Shown here: positions 7,763-59,305 of the stretch, piece after piece
How positions within the stretch are numbered: the first letter of the stretch is position 1
Layout: every line of letters starts with the position of its first letter
From: Sialis fuliginosa
Lineage: Eukaryota; Arthropoda; Insecta; Megaloptera; Sialidae
Reading direction: 5' to 3'
Assembly: GCA_961205875.1 (NCBI GenBank)
Contig: OY540821.1
Location: 14,632,001-14,696,000, forward strand
DNA length: 64,000 nucleotides
The notes under the pieces: generated by a model
Told to the model about the DNA's origin: nothing
Seen by the model: the letters and a program-made list of their open reading frames with translations, nothing else
The model's database searches: none
Program-made: the position numbers and the translations under genes

Positions 7763-8460
7763 GTCTAAATCGATATTTCCAACAAAATCCCGATTTCGAA
7801 AAATTTCGACATAACTTTCTTATCCTTCTAGCACAAGAAAATTAAAGCAGTATTAGAGACAAAAAAAAAACATGAACACATACAAACAAATACAAAATCG
7901 TGTACATTTAATTCAGCTTTGAAAAAAAATTGATACAGATTTATAAATTTTAATGCAAAGAACATTGTAAATGCATTTAAAAAACTAAGGTATTCGACAA
8001 TAGAGAATACCTGTTCAACATAATATCGACGTATGCTCTGTACGTAGTATTGTGTTTTTTTTTATTTCTTCTGTTGTTTTAAAATAAATACTATGTTTAT
8101 CCCGTATAATATTATAATGGCGCACGATTTACAGTGTGTGTGTATGTGTGTGTTAGAAAACATGAATAATGTAAAATCAATATATGTGCATGAAGAAATA
8201 GCCACATGAAAGATCGTGGTGGTGCTAACTTTAGTAAAAAATAGTAGGTACCTTCTTTGCCATCTTCGGAAAGATTTATTCAAATTTAATTTAGTTTCAT
8301 ACAAGTCAAGATATTCAAATTTATTAACGATGAAAAGTTAATTATTCACAATATGTGGAATAATAGGCTCTATTTGCCTATACTCGACCCAATCTGCAGT
8401 ACCTCGCCTCTATCTCCCAACAAATCGGCCCTGCAGATAGAGGCCTTTAATCTAAATTTG

Positions 8461-8935
8461 TCTGTTATACAAACGTCAAAATGACATTTAAAACGTCATA
8501 ATGATATTTATATGTCAAAGTAAATAGCAATTCAAAAAAAAAAACATGACGATTTTAAAGCAAATTGTGGCGACCTCTATTATAAGAAATTGAATGCTCT
8601 ACAAAAAATATTCTATTAAATTTTCACGTAATATGTGTCGTTTTTGAGATATCTTGAAAAAATAAATATTTTGTGATGTCATCCCTCCCCCTTACACATT
8701 TTGAAATGGGACTGTCCTCAAGCCAGATCCAACCAACTAACCAAGTTTCATTAATATCAGTTCAGTTGTTCATGAGTTATGCATGTGACAAAGATTCACT
8801 CGACAGACAGACAAAAATATTTGTCTTGACCTGAAACGGAAAGATCAAGTTAAAATTTTTTCACATATTAAAACGAGCACAAAGCTTCTAGTATCTTCAA
8901 TATGACGAGGAAACAAAATTTTACTTTTTGAAAAT
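8461..8935 (-). repeat. Dispersed repeat family R1, copy 1
   Basis: Read on the minus strand this matches 27295-27690 and 58850-59305. Shared landmarks are a TCTGTC/TGTGTG-rich block, aaccaatattaatgaaactt, ttggttggtt, cttgaggac, tcatttcaaaat, a G-rich gggagggtgacatc block, tttttgtagaa, and a final aaatgtcattttgacgtt. It resembles the abundant insect repeat ends with 'aaccgatttgatgaaacttgg'. No ORF survives. Confidence 0.75.
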
Positions 8936-13610: not shown

Positions 13611-14309
13611 ACCCTTGTTACAGCTCTGTAAAAAGTCTGCCAATGGTTCTTTTGCTATTTAACTCTAAACTAGAATTTGATGAAACAGTATCAGTATAAT
13701 CCTACCCTTATTACAGCCCTGTATAAAGTCTGTTGGCTGTTTATTTTGCTATTTAATTCTAAACTAGAATTTGATGAAACAGTATCAGTATAATCCTATC
13801 CTTGTTACGGCCCTGTATACAGTTTGGCGATAGTTCTTGTGCTATTTAATTCTAAATTAGAATTTCATGAAACAGTACCAATATAAACCTACCCGTTACA
13901 GCACTGTATAAAGTCTGCCGATGGTTCTTTTGCTATTTAATTCTAAACTAGAATTTGATGAAACAGTATCAATATAATCCTACCCTTATTACAGCCCTGT
14001 ATAAAGTCTGTTGGCTGTTTCTTTTGCTATTTAATTCTAAACTACAATTTGATGAAACAGTATCAGTATAATCCTACCCTTATTACAGCTCTGTATAAAG
14101 TATGTTGGCTGTTTCTTTTGCCATTTAATTCTAAACTAGAATTTGATGAAACTGTATCAATATAATCCTACCCTTGTTACGGCCCTGTATACAGTTTGGC
14201 GATAGTTCTTGTGCTATTTAATTCTAAACTAGAATTTAATGAAACAGTATCAGTATAATCCTACCCTTGTTACGGCCCTGTATATGTCTGCTGATGGTTC
14301 TTGTGCTAT
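13611..14309. repeat. 93-94-bp satellite array, about 7.4 units with mixed unit types
   Basis: Units start at about 13621, 13714, 13808, 13899, 13992, 14086, 14180 and 14273, giving periods of 91-94 bp; the last unit is cut short. Each full unit carries ccctgtata, tttgctatttaattcta, and a short perfect hairpin (aattcta, spacer aac, tagaatt). Three unit variants can be told apart just after the ccctgta block: tctgccgatggttc (A), tctgttggctgttt (C) and tttggcgatagttc (B). Their order is A-C-B-A-C-C-B-A-like, which suggests a roughly 280-bp higher-order period that was later disturbed. Confidence 0.9.
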
Positions 14310-18366: not shown

Positions 18367-19301
18367 CAGTGGCGAGGTGTGAATTTTTAATAAGGGAAGC
18401 ATATTTTGTCAATCCTCCCCCTCCTATTAACAAAAAAAACATCTTAAGTTCAAGCTTTTACTTTTTTAAATAAATTTGTATATATTTATATAGTAACTAA
18501 ATGATTCTACGTATTATTTTCTTGTATTTTAGTCAATATTTGTATGACGAGTTGAAGTTCACTGCAGGAAATTTCACTAAAAAATTTCGAATTTTTGATT
18601 TCGTTAAAAGTATGTTTATTGTATAGAAAATGGCGTGAAAAGTTGAACTGTTCAAACCGCAGGTCTGTATCTCAAACCGTTCTCGAGATATAGCCTCTCA
18701 AAGTTTTAGTTTTTTCAAATTTTTGGAGAAAAAAGGCCATAACTTTTGAACGCGTGGTCGGAATTGATTTTAGTTGACGGATTTTAAATCAGCGTGTCAA
18801 AATCTATATAATGACATGTATAATACTTTAAAATCAGACAAAAAAAATTTTGTCAAAAATCGACATTTTTTTAAGGTATACCCCTTTGAATTTTTTCAAT
18901 TTTTCGCGAAATTTTTTTTTTCGAGTTTTAAGGTATTATACATGTCATTATATAGATTTTGACACGCTGATTTCAAATCCGTCAACTAAAATCAATTCCG
19001 ACCACGCGTTCAAAAGTTATGGCCTTTTTTCTCCAAAAATTTGAAAAAACTAAAACTTTGAGAGGCTATATCTCGAGAACGGTTTGAGATACAGACCTGC
19101 GGTTTGAACAGTTCAACTTTTCACGTCATTTTATATACAATAAATATAATTTTAACGAAATTAAAAATTCGAAATTTTTAAGTGAAATTTCCTGCAGTGA
19201 ACTTCAACTCGTCATACAAATATCGACTAAAATACAAGAAAATAAGACGTAGAGGTATTATAGTTTTATAATTGAGCGTGTAAATTAATATTAAATGTTA
19301 T
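18367..19301 (+). mobile_element. hAT-like foldback element, copy 1 (right end lost)
   Basis: The left terminus is cagtggcgaggtgtg, as in the other two copies. The core is an almost perfect inverted repeat with arms at about 18507-18851 and 18910-19252, around a unique loop at 18852-18909. Homology to copy 3 stops near 19301, so the right terminal segment is missing. ORFs of 62-71 codons on both strands of all copies (product with MTDLKSACQNLYNDMYN) are mirror images produced by the palindrome, not genes. Transcription across it would give a long hairpin RNA. Confidence 0.85.
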
Positions 19302-27294: not shown

Positions 27295-27690
27295 ATTAAA
27301 TTATCAGAGGGGCGGTATTTCTGATGCAGTTTCGTGTCTTTCTGTGTGTGTGTCTGTTCCTTGAATCATGAACCACTAAACCAATATTAATGAAACTTGG
27401 TTGGTTGGTTAGGTCAAGCTTGAGGACGTCCCATTTCAAAATCGTGTGTAAGGGGGAAGGGTGACATCCCAAAACATCGTCAGATGTTACGTGAAAATTG
27501 TACAGAATCTTTTTTGTAGAACATTCAATTTTCTATAATATAGGTCTACAACGTTTGTTGTAATATATTCCCTTACAAAGATTTACCTCAGTTTGCTTTA
27601 AAAATCGTATCTTTTTTATTTCTATTTACTTTGACATACGAGTATTAAATGTCATTTTGACGTTTGCATAGCAGAAAAATTTAGAGTAAG
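27295..27690 (+). repeat. Dispersed repeat family R1, copy 2
   Basis: This has the same landmarks as 58850-59305 and the reverse complement of 8461-8935: tctgtgtgtgtgtctgt, aaccaatattaatgaaactt, ggttggttggttaggtcaag, cttgaggacgtcccatttca, gggggaagggtgacatccc, ttttttgtagaacattcaat, tgtcattttgacgtttgcat. No reading frame is preserved. Confidence 0.75.
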
Positions 27691-37654: not shown

Positions 37655-38719
37655 CAGTGGCGAGGCGTGGAATTTTTAAAAGGGAAGCATATTTTGTCAA
37701 TCCTCCCCCACCTATTAACAAAAAAAAACTAGTAATGAAGCAGTTTTAGTTCAAGCTTTTACTTTTTTAAATAAATTCTTATATATTTATATCGTAACTA
37801 AATGATTCTACGTCTTATTTTCTTGTATTTTAGTTGATATTTGTATGACGAGTTGAATTCACTGCAGGAAATTTCACTAAAAAATTTTGAATTTTTGATT
37901 TCGTTAAAAGTATGTTTATTGTATAGAAAATGGCGTGAAAAGTTGTTTGTTTAAAACCGCAGGTCTGTATCTCAAACCGTTCTCGAGATATAGCCTCTCA
38001 AAGTTTTAGTTTTTTCAAATTTTTGGAGAAAAAAGGCCATAACTTTTGAACGCGTGGTCGGAATTGATTTTAGTTGACGGATTTGGAATCAGCGTGTCGA
38101 AATCTATATAATGACATGCATAATAACTTAAAACTAGAAAAAAAAAATTTCGCGAAAAATCGAAAAAATTCAAAGGGGTATACCTTAAAAAAAATGTCGA
38201 TTTTTGACGAAAATTTTTTGTCGGGTTTTAAAGTATTATACATGTCATTATATAGATTTTGACACGCTGCTTTCAAATCCGTCAACTAAAATCAATTCCG
38301 ACCACGCGATCAAAAGTTATGGCCTTTTTTCTTCAAAAATTTGAAAAAACTAAAACTTTGAGAGGCTATATCTTGAGAACGGTTTGAGATACAGAACTGC
38401 GGTTTGAAACAGTCAACTTTTCACGTCATTTTCTATACAATAAACATACTTTTAACGAAATCAAAAATTCAAAAAATATTAGTGAAATTTCCTATACAAA
38501 TATCGACTAAAATACAAGAAAAAAAGACGTAGAGGTATTATAGTTTTATAATTGAACGTGTAAATGAATATTTAATGCTATTTTTGATTAAAATGTTTGA
38601 GTTGCGCATAAAGACGAATATTCTAATAATATTTTTAAATTATTTATTAACTAAAAACACTTATTAATTGTATTAATTTACCCACTGCTTCCCCTGCTTC
38701 CATGGACGCTTCGCCACTG
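37655..38719 (+). mobile_element. hAT-like foldback element, copy 2 (complete, loop inverted)
   Basis: The element is 1,065 bp. It begins cagtggcgaggcgtgg and ends, read inverted, cagtggcgaagcgtccatgg, so the terminal repeat is about 14 bp. The flanking octamers aattatgt and aactttgt agree at 6 of 8 positions, consistent with a decayed 8-bp hAT duplication. The arms match copies 1 and 3 closely. The central loop (38151-38209) is in the opposite orientation, relative to the outer ends, from copies 1 and 3. No transposase is encoded. Confidence 0.88.
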
Positions 38720-44500: not shown

Positions 44501-45060
44501 TTCAAACATGGAAAAAACTAGTTAAATTTTGTAATTTAAATTAAAAAATCTCAGACGAAAATACTTGTTAAGAACTAGACAATTTAAAATTTCAAATATT
44601 TTAACGAAAAAGTAAAACTGCGTTCAATAAATAATTGACATGAATTTAGTAAAGAATGTTTAATCAACTATGTTTTAAAGACTTCACACAAAATACACCG
44701 CGCTCTCTGACCTTTATCATTTCAATAAATTCACTAACTCGTAACCTTGAACTTGTCAAATGGTCACGGAATAATAAAGTAGGCACTCGTGTACACGCTA
44801 TATCATAAATTACACAATTATTATATTTCTAACAAGTTAATACCTACTGTACATTAAGTTATTAAATTAATTATTTCATACGTTGTATAAATATGTACAT
44901 ACATTGCTACTTAAGTCAAAGTATGCACTGAGCACATATTTATGTTTACATAATTTAATATGAGACAGCTAGTTAAGATACTAAATGGAGTAACTTAGCT
45001 TTTTTTTACCTATATGTGGTTCAGTATGTTTTTAAATAAAATTAAAAAAAAACATCTGCA
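41546..45060. other. AT-rich noncoding DNA with a CA microsatellite
   Basis: An acacacacac run lies at about 42321-42334. An 87-codon ORF at 42658-42921 sits in a stretch flanked by cacgtaattttta and taaaattacgta, a poor inverted pair, so it may be part of an old MITE. No supported gene. Confidence 0.45.
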
Positions 45061-45755
45061 CAGTGTTTCCTCGTATTAAATTCACCAAAGCTAGTTAATT
45101 ATTGAACAATTTAAATAAAATCCGATAAAGTGTTCAGATATATATAATTTTACGCACCTGATTATTTTTTCGTATATTTTTAATTTTTTGAAAATTTCAA
45201 TCTACTTAAATAAGTGCTAGTAATACTTATATATGTTTAACATACTACACCGTATAATTTTAATTCATCTCCTTGTCAAAAATAATTATGACACACCATA
45301 AATATTGTATTAACAATGAAGCAACTCTAATAATTATTATCTGTTTGAATATTTCTGAGAAAATAAATATAGTGTTAATTTTCTATGAAATAAAGTGATA
45401 GAACAATAAGTAACTATACGACTACTGGTTTATAATTAAGTATACTTCTAGCTTAACAATATACATTGATTGCATATTGGTATAATATTTTTTAATTTTT
45501 AAATAATAATAATTTATGCCTTTCTTTAATGAGATGCTTATTGAAAAAGATACAGACAATATAACATATAAACAAACATTTATGTTCAAGTATATATGGC
45601 TCATATAATATATGTATACATTGTAACTATAAATTACATATTATAAAGTGACTGGATTGTTTGCAAACGAAAACTTTTATCCAACTAGGTTTATGTGTAA
45701 TAAAATTTTTGAGGAGAGCAACTGCTTCCCTTGCCCCCAAACTCCGGCGCCACTG
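45061..45755. repeat. Stretch bounded by two unpaired hAT-like termini
   Basis: At 45061 cagtgtttcctcgtattaaa starts a block shared with 32400 and, inverted, with 28030. At 45755 a different end closes; read inverted it is cagtggcgccggagtttggg followed by ggcaagg. The two termini do not match beyond CAGTG and the flanking octamers differ, so they belong to two broken elements, not one. Confidence 0.45.
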
Positions 45756-45924
45756 TAAAAATGATATTTTTGTGGATTGATAACAAATATTTAATTATGA
45801 AACCTGTGCACATTATTTTAAACTAAGAATAAGTTTAAACAAATATTACAAATCAATATTAATAATTAAATATGATTACATTACGTATATTTTAGAAAAG
45901 TTAAATCTTGCACTCTTCTCAATG

Positions 45925-46019
45925 ATTGGTTTATATTTCAACAAGTTTTAATTAAACCCTATAAAATCCACTTTCTGTACAATTCTGTATCAGTCTCTTC
46001 CATAAATAAAATCTGAACG
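45925..46019 (+). promoter_or_regulatory. RNA polymerase II core promoter of the 46044 gene
   Basis: Elements in order: inverted CCAAT (attgg, 45925-45929), TATAAAA (45960-45966), initiator TCAGTC (45990-45995) with the A at 45992 taken as +1, and AACG (46016-46019). The TATA box starts at -32, the CCAAT lies near -65, and AACG falls at +25 to +28, exactly where the Drosophila MTE consensus places it. The ATG follows at +53. The spacing is directly readable; activity is inferred. Confidence 0.7.
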
Positions 46020-46043
46020 TGTGTACAATAATTTGGCTCAATA

Positions 46044-46334
46044 ATGAGTTCGATTCGAGAATTTATTCTCGTTTTTTACGAACGTATTAACGAAAATTCA
46101 AGCGAAGAAGAAATTCGTGTGAAAGAATATCTCGACAATGTTTTAGCAAGCGATCCAGAGCTTAACGTTGAAAGGTTGATGGAAATTAAGCTCGTATTTT
46201 GTCGTCTACTTCAAACCATGGTGAGAAAAATGCTCGACAACAACGCGGAAATTCTGAGAGCATTTCGGAATGACATCGAGACTATTAGAAGAAGGAGGAG
46301 ACGCGCCATCAAAAAATTTCCCACTGAAGAATAA
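46044..46334 (+). CDS. Short intronless gene, 96-residue charged helical protein, unrecognised
   Basis: I do not recognise this protein. The frame starts MSSIREFILVFYERINE and ends AIKKFPTEE. Residues 1-17 form an amphipathic helix, 19-34 an acidic segment (SSEEEIRVKEYLDN), and about 40-90 a long helix with heptad-like hydrophobics (LMEIKLVFCRLLQTMVRKML) running into a basic cluster, six consecutive Arg at about 82-87, which could bind nucleic acid or act as a nuclear signal. By my count the ORF is 111/291 G+C (38%), well above its flanks, and it mixes AT- and GC-ending codons. The first ATG after the predicted start site is used, with A at -3. A TATA-initiator promoter lies upstream and AATAAA signals downstream, with no splice site needed. 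A domesticated element, a retroposed copy or a virus-derived gene are possible origins; none is shown. Confidence 0.65.
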   Translation: MSSIREFILVFYERINENSSEEEIRVKEYLDNVLASDPELNVERLMEIKLVFCRLLQTMVRKMLDNNAEILRAFRNDIETIRRRRRRAIKKFPTEE

Positions 46335-46584
46335 CAGTGCGAACTTTTTATATTTTTTTGTTGTCGATGTTGATTTTAAATAGATTAATAATTTTAAACT
46401 GTGTGTATTTTAATATTGTTAAAGTCTGTGTCTTTTTTTAAATAATGTGTTTCATTTTTATAATATGTTTTATAGTATCAGTGTGTTAAAAATAGTCCAT
46501 TTATGCTCCTTTGAACAACAAGACAGCATTAAAATATTAACAGTGAAACGTTAATTCATGGAGTGGAATTTTGACATGATTTTA

Positions 46585-46646
46585 AATAAAATCAAATTAT
46601 AATTGACGTGTAACTGTGCCCCAATGGAAATAAAAATTTAAATAAA
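46585..46646 (+). terminator. Candidate polyadenylation signals of the 46044 gene
   Basis: AATAAA occurs at 46585-46590, 46629-46634 and 46641-46646, about 250-310 bp after the stop codon, followed by a T-rich stretch. AATAAA is frequent by chance in such AT-rich DNA, so which site is used cannot be told. Confidence 0.4.
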
Positions 46647-46659
46647 TTTTTTTGAGTTT

Positions 46660-48795
46660 TTATTTATTTTTTTACAGTTTTTTTACAAATGATTTCTTCT
46701 AGAGAAATATGGTAAGTATTTGATATTTAATTAATAAATTGGCCATAGCTGAGTAACAATGGTAAAGTTACCTCAGCATAAATTGTGCTAATTTTTATGT
46801 AAAACAAATTGTTAGAAAAAAATCTAATAAAAACGTATAAAAATGAAAATTTCAACAAATAGTATTTATGATATTGATTAATTAAAGCAATATTTTGTTT
46901 GAAATGATTAGGTCAGTTTGATTTCGAAAAACATGTACGAAGCTGTGAAAATCTGTTAGTTGCGTCAAGTCTGATAAAGATTTTCAGTAATTTATTAATA
47001 CTAAATGAAACAAAATTATGAAACTAAGCATAAAAATAAAAATAAACAGAAATAAAATTCACAATTTTAAATTATCCTTGATTTTTTATTTATTAGGTAG
47101 AAAATAAGGTATTTAAATCTTTCCAGATATGACAAATAACTCGTTTTAAAAAAAAAAAAAACAATAGAGCGTTATTACTTTTACTCTGATATCGCATTTA
47201 CCCCACTCCAAATTTTAAAAAAGAATTTGGATCAGATTCATTTCAGTATATGCTGGAACATTTATTTTTAATTAAAAAAAGGTGAATGTATACATAACAG
47301 AAAAGGGTAATAGTAAATAAAATAGCGTTAGAAAAAATAGAAAAAAATAAATACTAATAAATATTCAATGTAGTGTTTTTAAGGCGCCATCGGTTTCATT
47401 CAAAGAAAATTTTTCCTAATAAATTTTATATTTAAAACATCACTTTCTTATAAAATATAATAGCATGTTTTTAGTGTTCAAGGGTTGAATTTAAATTACA
47501 TTCAATATAAAACTCCTTTGTGTTAAGGGTTAATACATCGGCTTCTCGTTTTATATAGATATCAAACAATCTCTTCAAAATATTATAATTAAGTTATTTT
47601 GTATTCAGAACATTTTAAAAAATATTTCGGGGAGGTCTTTGTGAAAGATATATGGAAATTTTAAATAAAGATATTAACGTACTGACGAAATAAAGTTATT
47701 TGAAAATAAATATGTAATACTATACGTACGATTCATGCTCATAGAAGAATATATCAGTAGCGTACATACCTTAAAGCTATATTATTTTATTTAAAAAAAT
47801 AATATGAACATATGTATTTACATTACTGTAATATAAACTAATAATATGAAAATAAAAATAAGAATTTGTACAAGAATCAACATTAAAATTAAATATGCGT
47901 TACATTTGCGTATTCCCCAAATTCAGATCAGATTTTAAACAATCTCTAGTAAAATATTTAAATAGAAAAAATATATCGAAAATAGAGAAATAATAGACCA
48001 AAGTTAGGCGCGGGCCGTGAATTTTTTCGATCACGTCGGGTCACGGTTGTAATATTATCATAATAAAATCAGTTTACGAATATAAAAAAATTATTCAAAT
48101 AATTTTATACACATAAATAAATAATATTAAAACATTCATATACTAAAATTCACCGACAAAAGTGTTAAACGCAGTTCTCTTGATCTTTTATTTGAGATAT
48201 CGTAGCCGAAAAGGAAATAAAGCGTATTAAATACTTGTGAAATTACGTTAGAAATAATAAAATATATATGAATAAAACAAAGATCATAAAACATACAACT
48301 GAAATTAAACTATATTTTCACATATTCACTGTTTTACTTTACATAATATAATATTAAATGAATCTAAAAATGTTTAATGAAAATAATTACATATTTTTAA
48401 AGAAATACACTTTTTGAAGAGTTCAACCGCAAAAACATAAATACTAAAACGGTAGGGATTCCACCCAGAAACCAAGACAGTTATAAAATAGTATTAGATA
48501 TTATTATTTTTTTATCCAAAATGTGATATTGGCGTAATTAATACATTATTCACGAGTTAAGCGTAAACTGTAGACATTATTAAGCTATGGTAATTGGTAT
48601 AGGTATTAATTGCTTGACTGTCTGCTTGCGTAAATCAAAATATGTGAAGTAACACGAGGTGAGACGAGACCAGAGTTAGATACGAATGTCATACATCTCG
48701 TCTAGGTTTTGAATTTTACTACAAATAAATAATAATATGATACATACCTATTTAAATTAAATCTATATTATATTTATAATGTTGTTGTGAATTTA
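46660..48795. other. AT-rich noncoding DNA
   Basis: No gene or bounded repeat was seen. A short G+C patch (ggcgcgggccgtgaa, 48008-48022) is isolated. Confidence 0.55.
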
Positions 48796-49056: not shown

Positions 49057-51211
49057 TATATTAATATATCTTAAAGTTAATAATTACATTAACTAATAAA
49101 TTTGAATAAAAACCGATTTTTTTTTCTATTTGTATTTAACTATTGTCGTAAAAAGTTTGGAACCCCTGGTAGATATAGTACATAAAATAACAACATCGTC
49201 TTATTTTTATTTGCAATTATGTTTCATTATTGTCTATAGATTTTCACGATAACACATGTAAAAAAGTTAATTATCAAATTAACATATAATTAATTAAAAA
49301 ATTATACATTCATTTCTCTCATTATTTTAGAAAATATGACTTTGAACTACCCGAATTGTTATTACACCTAGATTTATTTTACTGAACCATTTTCAATGTA
49401 ATTAATAATTGTTATATAACATATATAATTATCTAAGGATTTTTGAACACTGTAATTACGTTTTTAACACTCTTTAAATTATAAAATTTAATTTAAATTC
49501 AGCGTATTCAAATATTTGAAAGTATCAAATAGGTAGGTATTTGGAATTAGGACTTGAAACATGATAATTTTATCGTATACTTTAACTTTTGTACTACTAA
49601 AAAAGGTTTTCAAGGTAACAATTTTTCGAAGATTACATTATCTACAATGAATATCAATAAATGATTGTCTTCGTCTCTATTCTAATCATCCTAGCGTAAT
49701 TTCATTCAAAATAAATAATTTATATTTTTTATAAACCAATTCATTATATATAAATTGCAAAAAAATAATATAAATCTGTAATATAATACAATATATACTT
49801 TTATAAAATATAACTTGATATATTCAATTTCAAATCAAGATAAAAATAATCCTAATAAATGAATATCACACACAGAGACTTGAGCTACTTGAATTGAAGA
49901 GAAAAAAAAAGCAAAACAAGTTGAATATAAATTTAAAAATCACAGAACGTCCATCTGATAAAGGAATTTCAGTCAAGTATAAGTTTGAAGACAAATTCAC
50001 TGAATTGTATAAAAGAATAAAGATTACCTTTTGAGCAAAGTGTAATAAAATAAGTAAGAGTGTGGGATGGAGGTTCTATATTGAATATTTATTGAACTGT
50101 AGTTAATTTATTCGAATTTCGAATTATAACGTGTTCATGAAACCACTATACGAATAGTAAAAAATAAAAGAAATTGAAACAACAATCTATAATATATGTT
50201 AGTGGTGTCGATAGGGGGGGGGGGGATATCTGGGGTGATAATCGATAGTCTCTCCATATATGTATATAAATTTGTAAGTTCTATCAGTGCAATATATTTT
50301 TTATATATACATAGGTCATAGGTACATGAAATGTACTGTATAATCATGAAAAAATCCGAAATTCCTGAATCACGTACGACTATTATCTCAATGACGACTA
50401 TGTGTGTGTCTATCTGTGAACGTTCTATAGCCAAAACGGTGAGACTTACAAACATGCAATTTTAAACTTAAGGTTCTTGTATACTCTAGATGTGCACGTC
50501 CTATTTTTTTACGTCGTTTAACTGCAATATAATCGATTAATATAGATTCTAAAAAACTAGTCTAGGTTTCATTATTCCGTAAAAATACTGAACCGATTTT
50601 GATGGGATTATTTTTGTTAGAAAGCTTTAGATCTCAGAATTAATTAAGGTTACATAATTATTGATATTTTTTAATAAAAACACATACAAGTATGATGTAA
50701 AATTGGAAGAAAAGACAGTAGTAAGATTATTTTTTATTGTTAATGTATCATTAAATAAAAACTCATTTAGTTTGACTATTTCTTTACATATTATACATGA
50801 ATAATTGCAACTTATTTTTTTAAATGAAATTTTGTTGTTGTATCGTTACCACTTACTGTACTATACCGTGAAATTTATTTTTAAGTACAGATGGGTCTGG
50901 ACACTGGTTGGATTTCGCAGTCAGTCATCAAATAATCGTCCGACAGATTTTATCTTAATACCATATTGCATATTCTATACTTTAAATCTTTTTACAGTAA
51001 AAAGTACAGTAGCAAGCCTACGTTACGAGTAGGTTTTACAAATGGCATTATAAAATGTACGTAAGTACATGCATTTATATCATGATAAGTTATATTAAAC
51101 ATTATAAAAAGGCAGTATATAGATAAATAATATTATATGCAATAAGAATTGCTACTGAACTGTACGCTTGCGTAAATGAATTTAGCTATTGCTAAAAATA
51201 CAATTATTTTC
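49057..51211. other. AT-rich noncoding DNA with repeat fragments
   Basis: gtttggaacccctg at 49155-49168 resembles a lone hAT-type end. A 12-G run lies at 50214-50225. 50390-50450 (gtgtgtgtctatctgtgaac, tatagccaaaacggtgagac) and 50580-50650 (tactgaaccgattttgatgg) are fragments of 'accgattttgatg' repeats. The 106-codon minus-strand ORF at 50135-50455 crosses these and is not supported as a gene. Confidence 0.5.
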
Positions 51212-52391
51212 TAGCTAGTATACACGCATACTACGTGCGGGCGCGAGCATACGCGCAGTGGCGAAGCGTCCATGGAAGCAGTGTTGGGTAAATTAATACA
51301 AATCTGTGTTTTCAGAATAAATAATTTTAAAATATTATTAGAATATTCATCTTAATGCGCAACCCATTTTAACCAAAAGTCAAAAATAGCATTTAATATT
51401 AATTTACACGTTCAATTATAAAACTATAATACCTCTACGTCTTATTTTCTTGTATTTTAGTCGATATTTGTATGACGAGTTGAATTTTACTGCAGGAAAA
51501 TTCACTAAAAAATTTTGAATTTTTGATTTCGTTAAAAGTATGTTTATTGTATAGAAAATGGCGTGAAAAGTTGAACTGTTCAAACCGCAGGTCTGTATCT
51601 CAAATCGTTCTCGAGATATAGCCTCTCAAAGTTTCAGTTTTTTCAAAATTTTGAAGAAAAATGGCCATAACTTTTGAACGGATGGTCGGAATTGATTTTA
51701 GTTGACGGATTTGGAATCAGCGCATCAAAATCTATATAATGACATGTATAATACTTTAAAACTCGGAAAAAAAAAATTCGCGAAAAATCGAAAAAATTCA
51801 AAGGGGTATACCTTAAAAAAATGTCGATTTTTGACGAAAATTTTTTTGTCGAATTTTAAAGTATTATACATGTCATTATATAGATTTTGACACGCTGATT
51901 TCAAATCCGTCAACTAAAATCAATTCTGACCATCTGTTCAAAAGTTATGGCCATTTTTTTCCAAAAATTTGAAAAAACTAAAACTTTGAGAGGCTATATC
52001 TCGAGAACGGTTTGAGATACAGACCTGCGGTTTGAAGCATTCAACTTTTCACGTCATATTCTATACAATAAACATACTTTTAACGAAATCAAAAACTCGA
52101 AATTTTTTACTGAAATTTCCTGCGGTGAACTTCATTTCATCATACAAATATCGACTAAAATACAAGAAAATAAGACGTAGAATCATTTAGTTACTATATA
52201 AATATGTAAGAATTTATTTAAAAAAGTAAAAACTTGAACTTAAGGTGTTTCATTACTAGTTTTATTTGTTAATAGGAGGAGGATTGACAAAATATGTTTT
52301 CCTTATTAAAAATTTCACACCTCGCCACTGGATACGCGCTCCCGCACGTGGTATGCATTTGCGTCCTGTACCGTCACGTTTATACTAGCTA
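51212..52391. mobile_element. Small GC-rich palindromic element split by a hAT-like insertion
   Basis: tagctagtata at 51212-51222 faces tatactagcta at 52381-52391. Inside them catactacgtgcgggcgcga on the left pairs with cgctcccgcacgtggtatgc on the right. With the inserted element (51256-52330) and one target copy removed, the outer element is about 97 bp. Its base composition is far richer in G+C than anything nearby. Confidence 0.7.
51256..52330 (-). mobile_element. hAT-like foldback element, copy 3 (complete)
   Basis: The element is 1,075 bp, in the opposite orientation to copies 1 and 2. The ends are cagtggcgaagcgtccatgg and, inverted, cagtggcgaggtgtgaa. The flanking octamers catacgcg (51248-51255) and gatacgcg (52331-52338) agree at 7 of 8 positions: the clearest 8-bp duplication of the three copies and the main basis for the hAT call. 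The arms run from about 51435 to 52180 around the loop at 51779-51836. No transposase ORF is present. Confidence 0.9.
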
Positions 52392-58849: not shown

Positions 58850-59305
58850 AATTTGATTTTTCCATTTCAGGTCAAGACAAACACTTTTCGTTCCATGTCT
58901 GTCTGCCTGTGTGTTTGTGTGTGTCTGCCTGTCTGTCTGTCCCCCAAATCCTTGTCACACGCATAACTAATGAAACACTGAACCAATATTAATGAAACTT
59001 GGTTGGTTGGGTCTAGCTTGAGGACGGTCTCATTTCAAAATTATGAAAATCATGTTTAAGTGGGAGGGATGACACCCCAAAATATTTATTTTTTTAAGAT
59101 ATCTCAAGAAAGACACATGTTAAGTATGTACGTGAAAATTTTATAGACTCTTTTTTGTAGAATATTCAATTTCCTATAACATAATACGCATATGTCACCA
59201 CAACGTTTGTTTTAAAATATTCCTTTACAAAGATTTATCTCAATTTGCTTTTGATATATTAAATGTCATTTTGACGTTTACATAACAGAAAAATTTTTAT
59301 TTACA
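58850..59305 (+). repeat. Dispersed repeat family R1, copy 3
   Basis: This copy shows ccatttcaggtcaagacaaa, a tgtctgcctgtgtgtttgtg run, aaccaatattaatgaaactt, ggttggttgggtctagcttg, gggagggatgacacccca, aagatatctcaagaaag and tgtcattttgacgtttacat. It is the fullest copy and carries the ttaagatatctcaagaa block also present in copy 1. Confidence 0.78.

Follow-up and report, generated by a model that had tools for sequence, protein, structure and literature searches.

The locus considered here raises a simple question: does a short open reading frame (ORF) preceded by a well-spaced core promoter in gene-poor insect DNA represent a real gene, or has the combination arisen by chance? The window, that is, the whole stretch of 64,000 nucleotides analysed, is a part of a contig (G000:C13:14632001-14696000) of the Sialis fuliginosa genome, which comprises 392 Mb in 20 contigs. 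One of the latter, C20, is the mitochondrial genome (15.6 kb), whose protein-gene order we take to be the usual insect one. Our best reading is that the locus rather probably represents a real single-copy, single-exon protein-coding gene, lineage-restricted as judged by the libraries searched, with a TATA/Inr promoter and a helical product.

Anatomy of the locus

The ORF occupies positions 46044..46334 of the plus strand, from the ATG at 46044 (+53 relative to the predicted start site) to the TAA at 46332-46334. It specifies a charged, predicted helical protein of 96 residues (11.7 kDa, pI 7.9) with RRRRRR near the C-terminus. As many as 37 of the 96 residues (39%) are charged, in line with the highly charged product with six consecutive arginines described in the initial annotation. 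The G+C content of the coding part, given there as about 38% and clearly above that of the flanks, amounts to 38.5% vs. 26.4% in the 500 nt upstream and 22.8% in the 500 nt downstream. The predicted 5′UTR (45992..46043, plus strand) comprises 52 nt and is devoid of any ATG, while the predicted 3′UTR (46335..46660, plus strand, with an approximate end) bears AATAAA at 46585, 46629 and 46641, followed by a T-rich stretch. This anatomy is established. The AATAAA motif occurs 231 times on the plus strand of the window, i.e., about once per 277 nt, and because the DNA is so A+T-rich, its appearance near the ORF is expected by chance.

Gene recognition was extended to flank loci covering 30 kb on each side, with Pfam run on two frames of them. 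Within this range, the only gene recognised lies about 46 kb downstream and is represented by a leucine-rich-repeat receptor-like exon starting from C13:14724227 (Pfam LRR_8, E 1.8e-85), which presumably resembles insect Toll receptors. At 45728-45761 there is a short G+C-rich segment that reads TTTTTACAG and then TGGCGCCGGAGTTTGGGGGCAAGGG on the minus strand; it may be compared either to a splice acceptor with the beginning of an exon, or to the primer-binding site of an LTR element. It is absent from the genome matches listed for the upstream flank (best 40 of 2534 candidates scored).

The ORF is preceded by a predicted TATA/Inr core promoter

A TATAAAA box (45960..45966, plus strand) is situated with its first T at −32 and its second T at −30 relative to A45992, the predicted +1 nucleotide of a TCAGTC initiator (45990..45995, plus strand). 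TCAGTY is given as the Drosophila initiator in the excerpt of PMC1779564 used here, and according to the excerpt of PMC1538597, the second T of a Drosophila TATA box lies between −33 and −23, with TATA-Inr pairs over-represented at distances of 30-34 nt, mostly 31 and 32. The distance to A+1 in our locus, 30 nt when counted from the second T or 32 nt when counted from the first, falls within both the functional window and the over-represented range according to these Drosophila rules (PMC1538597, excerpt). With a TATA box 23-33 nt upstream and a TCAGTY initiator, the promoter can be assigned to the TATA/Inr type, its start site being predicted from the sequence. It is thus similar to the Drosophila-type promoters of the two excerpts (PMC1538597, PMC1779564) in combining TATAAAA with TCAGTY at one of the over-represented distances, and differs from them in that its start site is a prediction and its motif ten element (MTE) is incomplete. 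At the MTE position (+18 to +29; 46009..46020, plus strand), only 7 of the 12 bases of the Drosophila consensus CSARCSSAACGS (PMC1538597, excerpt) are matched, including an exact AACG at 46016-46019 (+25 to +28). Further upstream, at −67 to −63, there is ATTGG (45925..45929), a weak short motif corresponding to CCAAT on the minus strand.

The coordinates assigned by the initial annotation to TATAAAA (−32), TCAGTC, AACG (+25 to +28), ATG (+53) and AATAAA proved exact. Its main claim, that of an intronless orphan gene whose core promoter is complete, survives as the best reading; the MTE is partial, at 7/12 bases, and AATAAA is to be expected by chance.

How often such a promoter would emerge fortuitously was estimated with simulated windows (60, generated by a Markov-3 model, for counts of ORFs, motifs and charge; 200 for the coding score). 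A loose TATA+Inr pair was observed once vs. 1.87 expected per window, whereas the exact TATAAAA+TCAGTC pair was observed once vs. 0.10 expected, and neither strand of the window has a second TATAAAA/TCAGTC pair with a spacing of 28-34 nt. From the simulated rates, the chance of a right-strand pair falling at most 100 nt upstream of the ORF is about 0.0015 for the loose and about 0.0001 for the exact form. The unusual point is their co-occurrence: there is a single pair, and its start site precedes by 52 nt the one ORF of the window with a gene-like make-up. These figures bear on the possibility that the ORF is merely a local G+C-rich, purine-rich patch in which no stop happens to occur over 96 codons, preceded by a TATA/TCAGT pair that is itself fortuitous. 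Loose pairs are indeed to be expected, but the exact pair sits in register with the ORF, and together with the coding evidence below this leads us to regard a chance ORF as rather unlikely.

The composition of the ORF is gene-like

The length of the ORF alone is not beyond chance. ATG-initiated ORFs of at least 96 aa number on average 1.65 per simulated window vs. 5 in the real one, where five ATG ORFs reach 90 aa and all of these are at least 96 aa long. A chance ORF is thus readily accommodated by length, but not by charge: none of the ORFs of 60 aa or more in the 60 simulated windows had a make-up of at least 38% charged and at least 18% acidic residues. In the real window, charged residues constitute 39% of the ORF vs. 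10-30% of the other 15 ORFs of at least 60 aa, and the purine fraction at the first codon position is 0.70 vs. at most 0.62 in these ORFs. The GC1/GC2/GC3 values of the ORF (0.47/0.30/0.39) are close to those of kinase exons of the same genome (0.49/0.34/0.38). The order GC1>GC3>GC2 is found in one other long ORF (50135-50455) as well, yet of all ORFs of 60 aa or more (16 in the window), only the one under study joins high charge with a gene-like codon-position profile.

The coding score combined codon log-odds with an open-frame term and was trained on kinase loci of the genome. For total scores, 14 of the 30 kinase loci were used (14 minus-strand loci and two plus-strand loci with stops were left out); for per-codon scores and profiles, 24 of the 30 loci (5459 codons; six with stops left out). 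The total score of the ORF was 23.4 with the 14-locus and 23.9 with the 24-locus training. With the former, it exceeded the totals of all other ATG-initiated ORFs in the window that are 40 aa or longer, the next one having 13.2. None of the 200 simulated windows reached 23.4, their maximum being 19.9. Of the six frames of the ORF, its own was clearly the best (0.141 per codon vs. at most 0.013 elsewhere), which also speaks against a chance ORF. On the other side, total scores of 32.1 and 20.2 were obtained in the six flank loci for an antisense ORF inside the leucine-rich-repeat gene and for an ORF of locus L007, respectively. A 54-aa frame at L007:8296-8457 also has a high coding score; it has no Pfam match at E 0.01, and its sequence is reminiscent of the terminal part of a mariner-type transposase.

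Finer controls were less discriminating. The per-codon score of the ORF was reached by 686 of 5000 shuffles with fixed composition, i.e., it is unremarkable in this respect, as a chance ORF would predict. A GC-matched control comprised 2806 real 288-nt frames taken every 12 nt from the window and five of the six flank loci, L011 being left out because it contains a known gene. Ignoring stops, 1.5% of these frames reached the per-codon score of the ORF, while only 5 of the 2806, in three places, were open, all with negative scores (−0.13 to −0.28 vs. +0.14 for the ORF). When the window's 223 stop-to-stop frames with 50 aa or more were ranked per codon, the ORF came fourth, three shorter frames being equal or higher, and one place in the window has a higher 40-codon coding peak. 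These shuffle, GC-matched and rank controls lead to the conclusion that the composition of the ORF is gene-like, and that fine codon choice adds little over 96 codons; the coding-like composition as such is established.

The distribution of the score along the ORF, best inside it and slightly negative in the first quarter (−0.10), would also be compatible with a single exon of a larger gene, in which the CAG at 45991-45993, lying after a partly pyrimidine stretch, or another AG served as a splice acceptor. However, the frame is closed 5′ of 46032, so that an upstream exon must join within 46032-46044 or inside the ORF itself. Moreover, of the 13 best-separated 40-codon peaks listed, none of the 12 others falls within 12 kb on the same strand, a scan that shorter exons would escape, and Pfam was blank in two forward frames of the 38-53 kb region. 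We therefore consider an exon of a larger gene quite improbable and retain the single-exon gene.

Relatives of the encoded protein

The initial annotation recognised no family, and our searches agree with it: nothing passed the threshold in Pfam, PHROGs, NCBIfam, PDB, IMG/VR, GTDB or phage records. Scans of the ORF protein with Pfam, PHROGs and NCBIfam yielded only weak matches, the best at E 0.0045, far below curated cut-offs where these exist. The suggestion of a histone-like gene is unsupported, since neither a core nor a linker histone domain was found in Pfam, where the sole match was SATase_N (E 0.049, below the cut-off). PDB sequences and phage records gave no match to the protein, and pattern stretches found in IMG/VR (11) and in GTDB genomes (50) yielded no confirmed case. 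Foldseek with the single-sequence AlphaFold2 model retrieved nothing meaningful (best E 1.3 for a viral BFVD entry and 3.4 for PDB). The term "orphan" is therefore relative to the libraries searched, as its own genome is the only insect genome compared. In having an ORF of fewer than 100 aa, compactness and no recognised domain, the locus is similar to the conserved Drosophila smORFs described in the excerpt of PMC3334604; the latter were sifted by second-species conservation, Ka/Ks and transcription, whereas ours is a candidate from sequence alone.

A faint lead came from the genome itself. The best other match of the ORF protein, at E 0.46, was L003 (C1:20748427-20749560), which forms a two-member family with L045 (C12:11418900-11419505). 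The two are 46% identical over the C-terminal half and 38% over the whole alignment; at L003:613-1749 and L045:1486-2520, they have long open frames and no Pfam domain. If the ORF were a very diverged, shortened relative sharing a helical segment with them, the following observations would fit. BLASTP of the ORF against L003 as an isolated pair gives E 2e-06; an ungapped 62-residue alignment fits both members, with 15/62 and 11/62 identities. Smith-Waterman scores are 76 for L003 (shuffle mean 32.9, sd 4.5; reached by 0/500) and 64 for L045 (31.8, sd 5.2; reached by 1/500; one single-residue gap). With a profile of L003 and L045, the ORF scores 16.2 bits vs. 10.7 for the best of 2000 shuffles, and it agrees with the second member beyond its agreement with the first (P = 0.02). 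However, since L003 was picked genome-wide as the best match, the pairwise and shuffle figures for it are inflated. Besides, helical segments readily align, and the similarity is not reciprocal: neither member finds the window ORF (at thresholds of E 1 and E 10, with only 4 and 3 first-look candidates). The kinship, suggested by sequence similarity, is thus unproven, and we consider it extremely improbable.

Protein model and proposed role

The helical character ascribed to the product by the initial annotation finds support in the single-sequence AlphaFold2 prediction, with helices at residues 4-14, 21-36 and 42-91. The mean pLDDT is 83 in the best of five models and 65 in the worst, with block means of 86-98 over residues 51-90 and a pTM of only 0.46. 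Residues 42-81 are strongly amphipathic, their hydrophobic moment being reached by 0 of 2000 shuffles, while the two short helices are not amphipathic beyond shuffles (20% and 30% of the shuffles reach theirs). The net charge is split into −5 over residues 1-80 and +6 over residues 81-96.

For the single-exon gene that we favour, we infer transcription and translation along the following lines. Transcription would begin near 45992 under the control of the TATA/Inr promoter and yield a transcript of approximately 0.65-0.7 kb, which would encode an 11.7-kDa all-helical protein with two short helices followed by the long one (42-91). The long helix, amphipathic over 42-81 and with the arginine cluster at its end, may self-associate or pack against a partner, and the arginine cluster may serve as a nuclear-import and/or nucleic-acid-contacting patch. 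Even given a real gene, a nuclear role, suggested by the model, is possible but falls clearly short of an even chance. Expression may be tissue- or stage-limited, as is often the case for genes with TATA/Inr promoters.

A bolder version holds that the gene arose from noncoding DNA (or diverged past recognition), already has a full and well-spaced TATA/Inr promoter and specifies a stably helical, arginine-tipped nuclear protein founding a family outside Pfam; as a whole, it appears clearly unlikely. More soberly, the locus is an ordinary orphan candidate of a common kind, probably real. If so, it adds one more compact orphan gene in gene-poor insect DNA, and owing to its minimal anatomy, the birth of the promoter and the frame could be easily dated in related species. 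Small genes confined to one lineage are common, however, and only limited general conclusions would follow from this one, unless its orthologues reveal a recent birth from noncoding DNA.

Copy number and nearby repeats

The locus (45900-46700, 801 nt) has only a self-match in the genome and is thus single-copy, and a six-frame genome search with the ORF protein revealed no second match below E 0.46. Since no parent gene was seen in the genome, we rejected a retrocopy of a cellular gene, bearing in mind that a more diverged parent would escape a search of this kind. A transposon-borne gene should be present in many copies, whereas 45900-46700 matches itself alone.

The surroundings are richer in repeats. 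Upstream, at 45034..45211, there is a dispersed repeat with many genome copies (best 40 of 2534 candidates scored), and pieces of dispersed repeats lie downstream at 46823-46916 and 47045-47228 (best 40 of 70 candidates scored). Among the matches scored, the closest repeat on the upstream side stops about 0.75 kb short of the TATA box, and that on the downstream side starts about 0.5 kb past the stop codon. None of the local repeat pairs listed (20 of 21 direct families and 25 of 90 inverted pairs) is long or strong, and none of them represents terminal repeats framing the gene.

Repeats on both sides of an intronless, compact ORF for which a cellular family was not found might suggest an origin by capture from an insect virus or by domestication of a transposon. 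However, the locus itself is not repeated, and in the small number of neighbouring frames submitted to Pfam (10 other long window frames, the two forward frames of 38-53 kb and two flank-locus frames), domains of viral or transposon origin were not detected. IMG/VR, phage records and BFVD folds contain no relative, which is weak evidence, since insect viruses are probably few in these libraries. A genome search with the nudiviral marker PIF was blank and is uninformative because its control was also silent. Taken together, capture or domestication seems very improbable; the viral capture and the youth of the gene, as raised by the initial annotation, are unsupported.

Elsewhere in the window, one repeat is present in three copies of 0.94-1.1 kb that are 86-92% identical (18367-19301, 37655-38719 and 51256-52330). 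Over about 0.75 kb, the copies match one another in both orientations, which makes the repeat largely palindromic; it perhaps represents a foldback or MITE-like transposon. At 13611-14309, a 94-nt unit is tandemly repeated about 7.5 times with 86% matches, and a dispersed repeat of about 330 nt occurs in three copies, 67-72% identical, at 8447-8813, 27366-27689 and 58930-59296.
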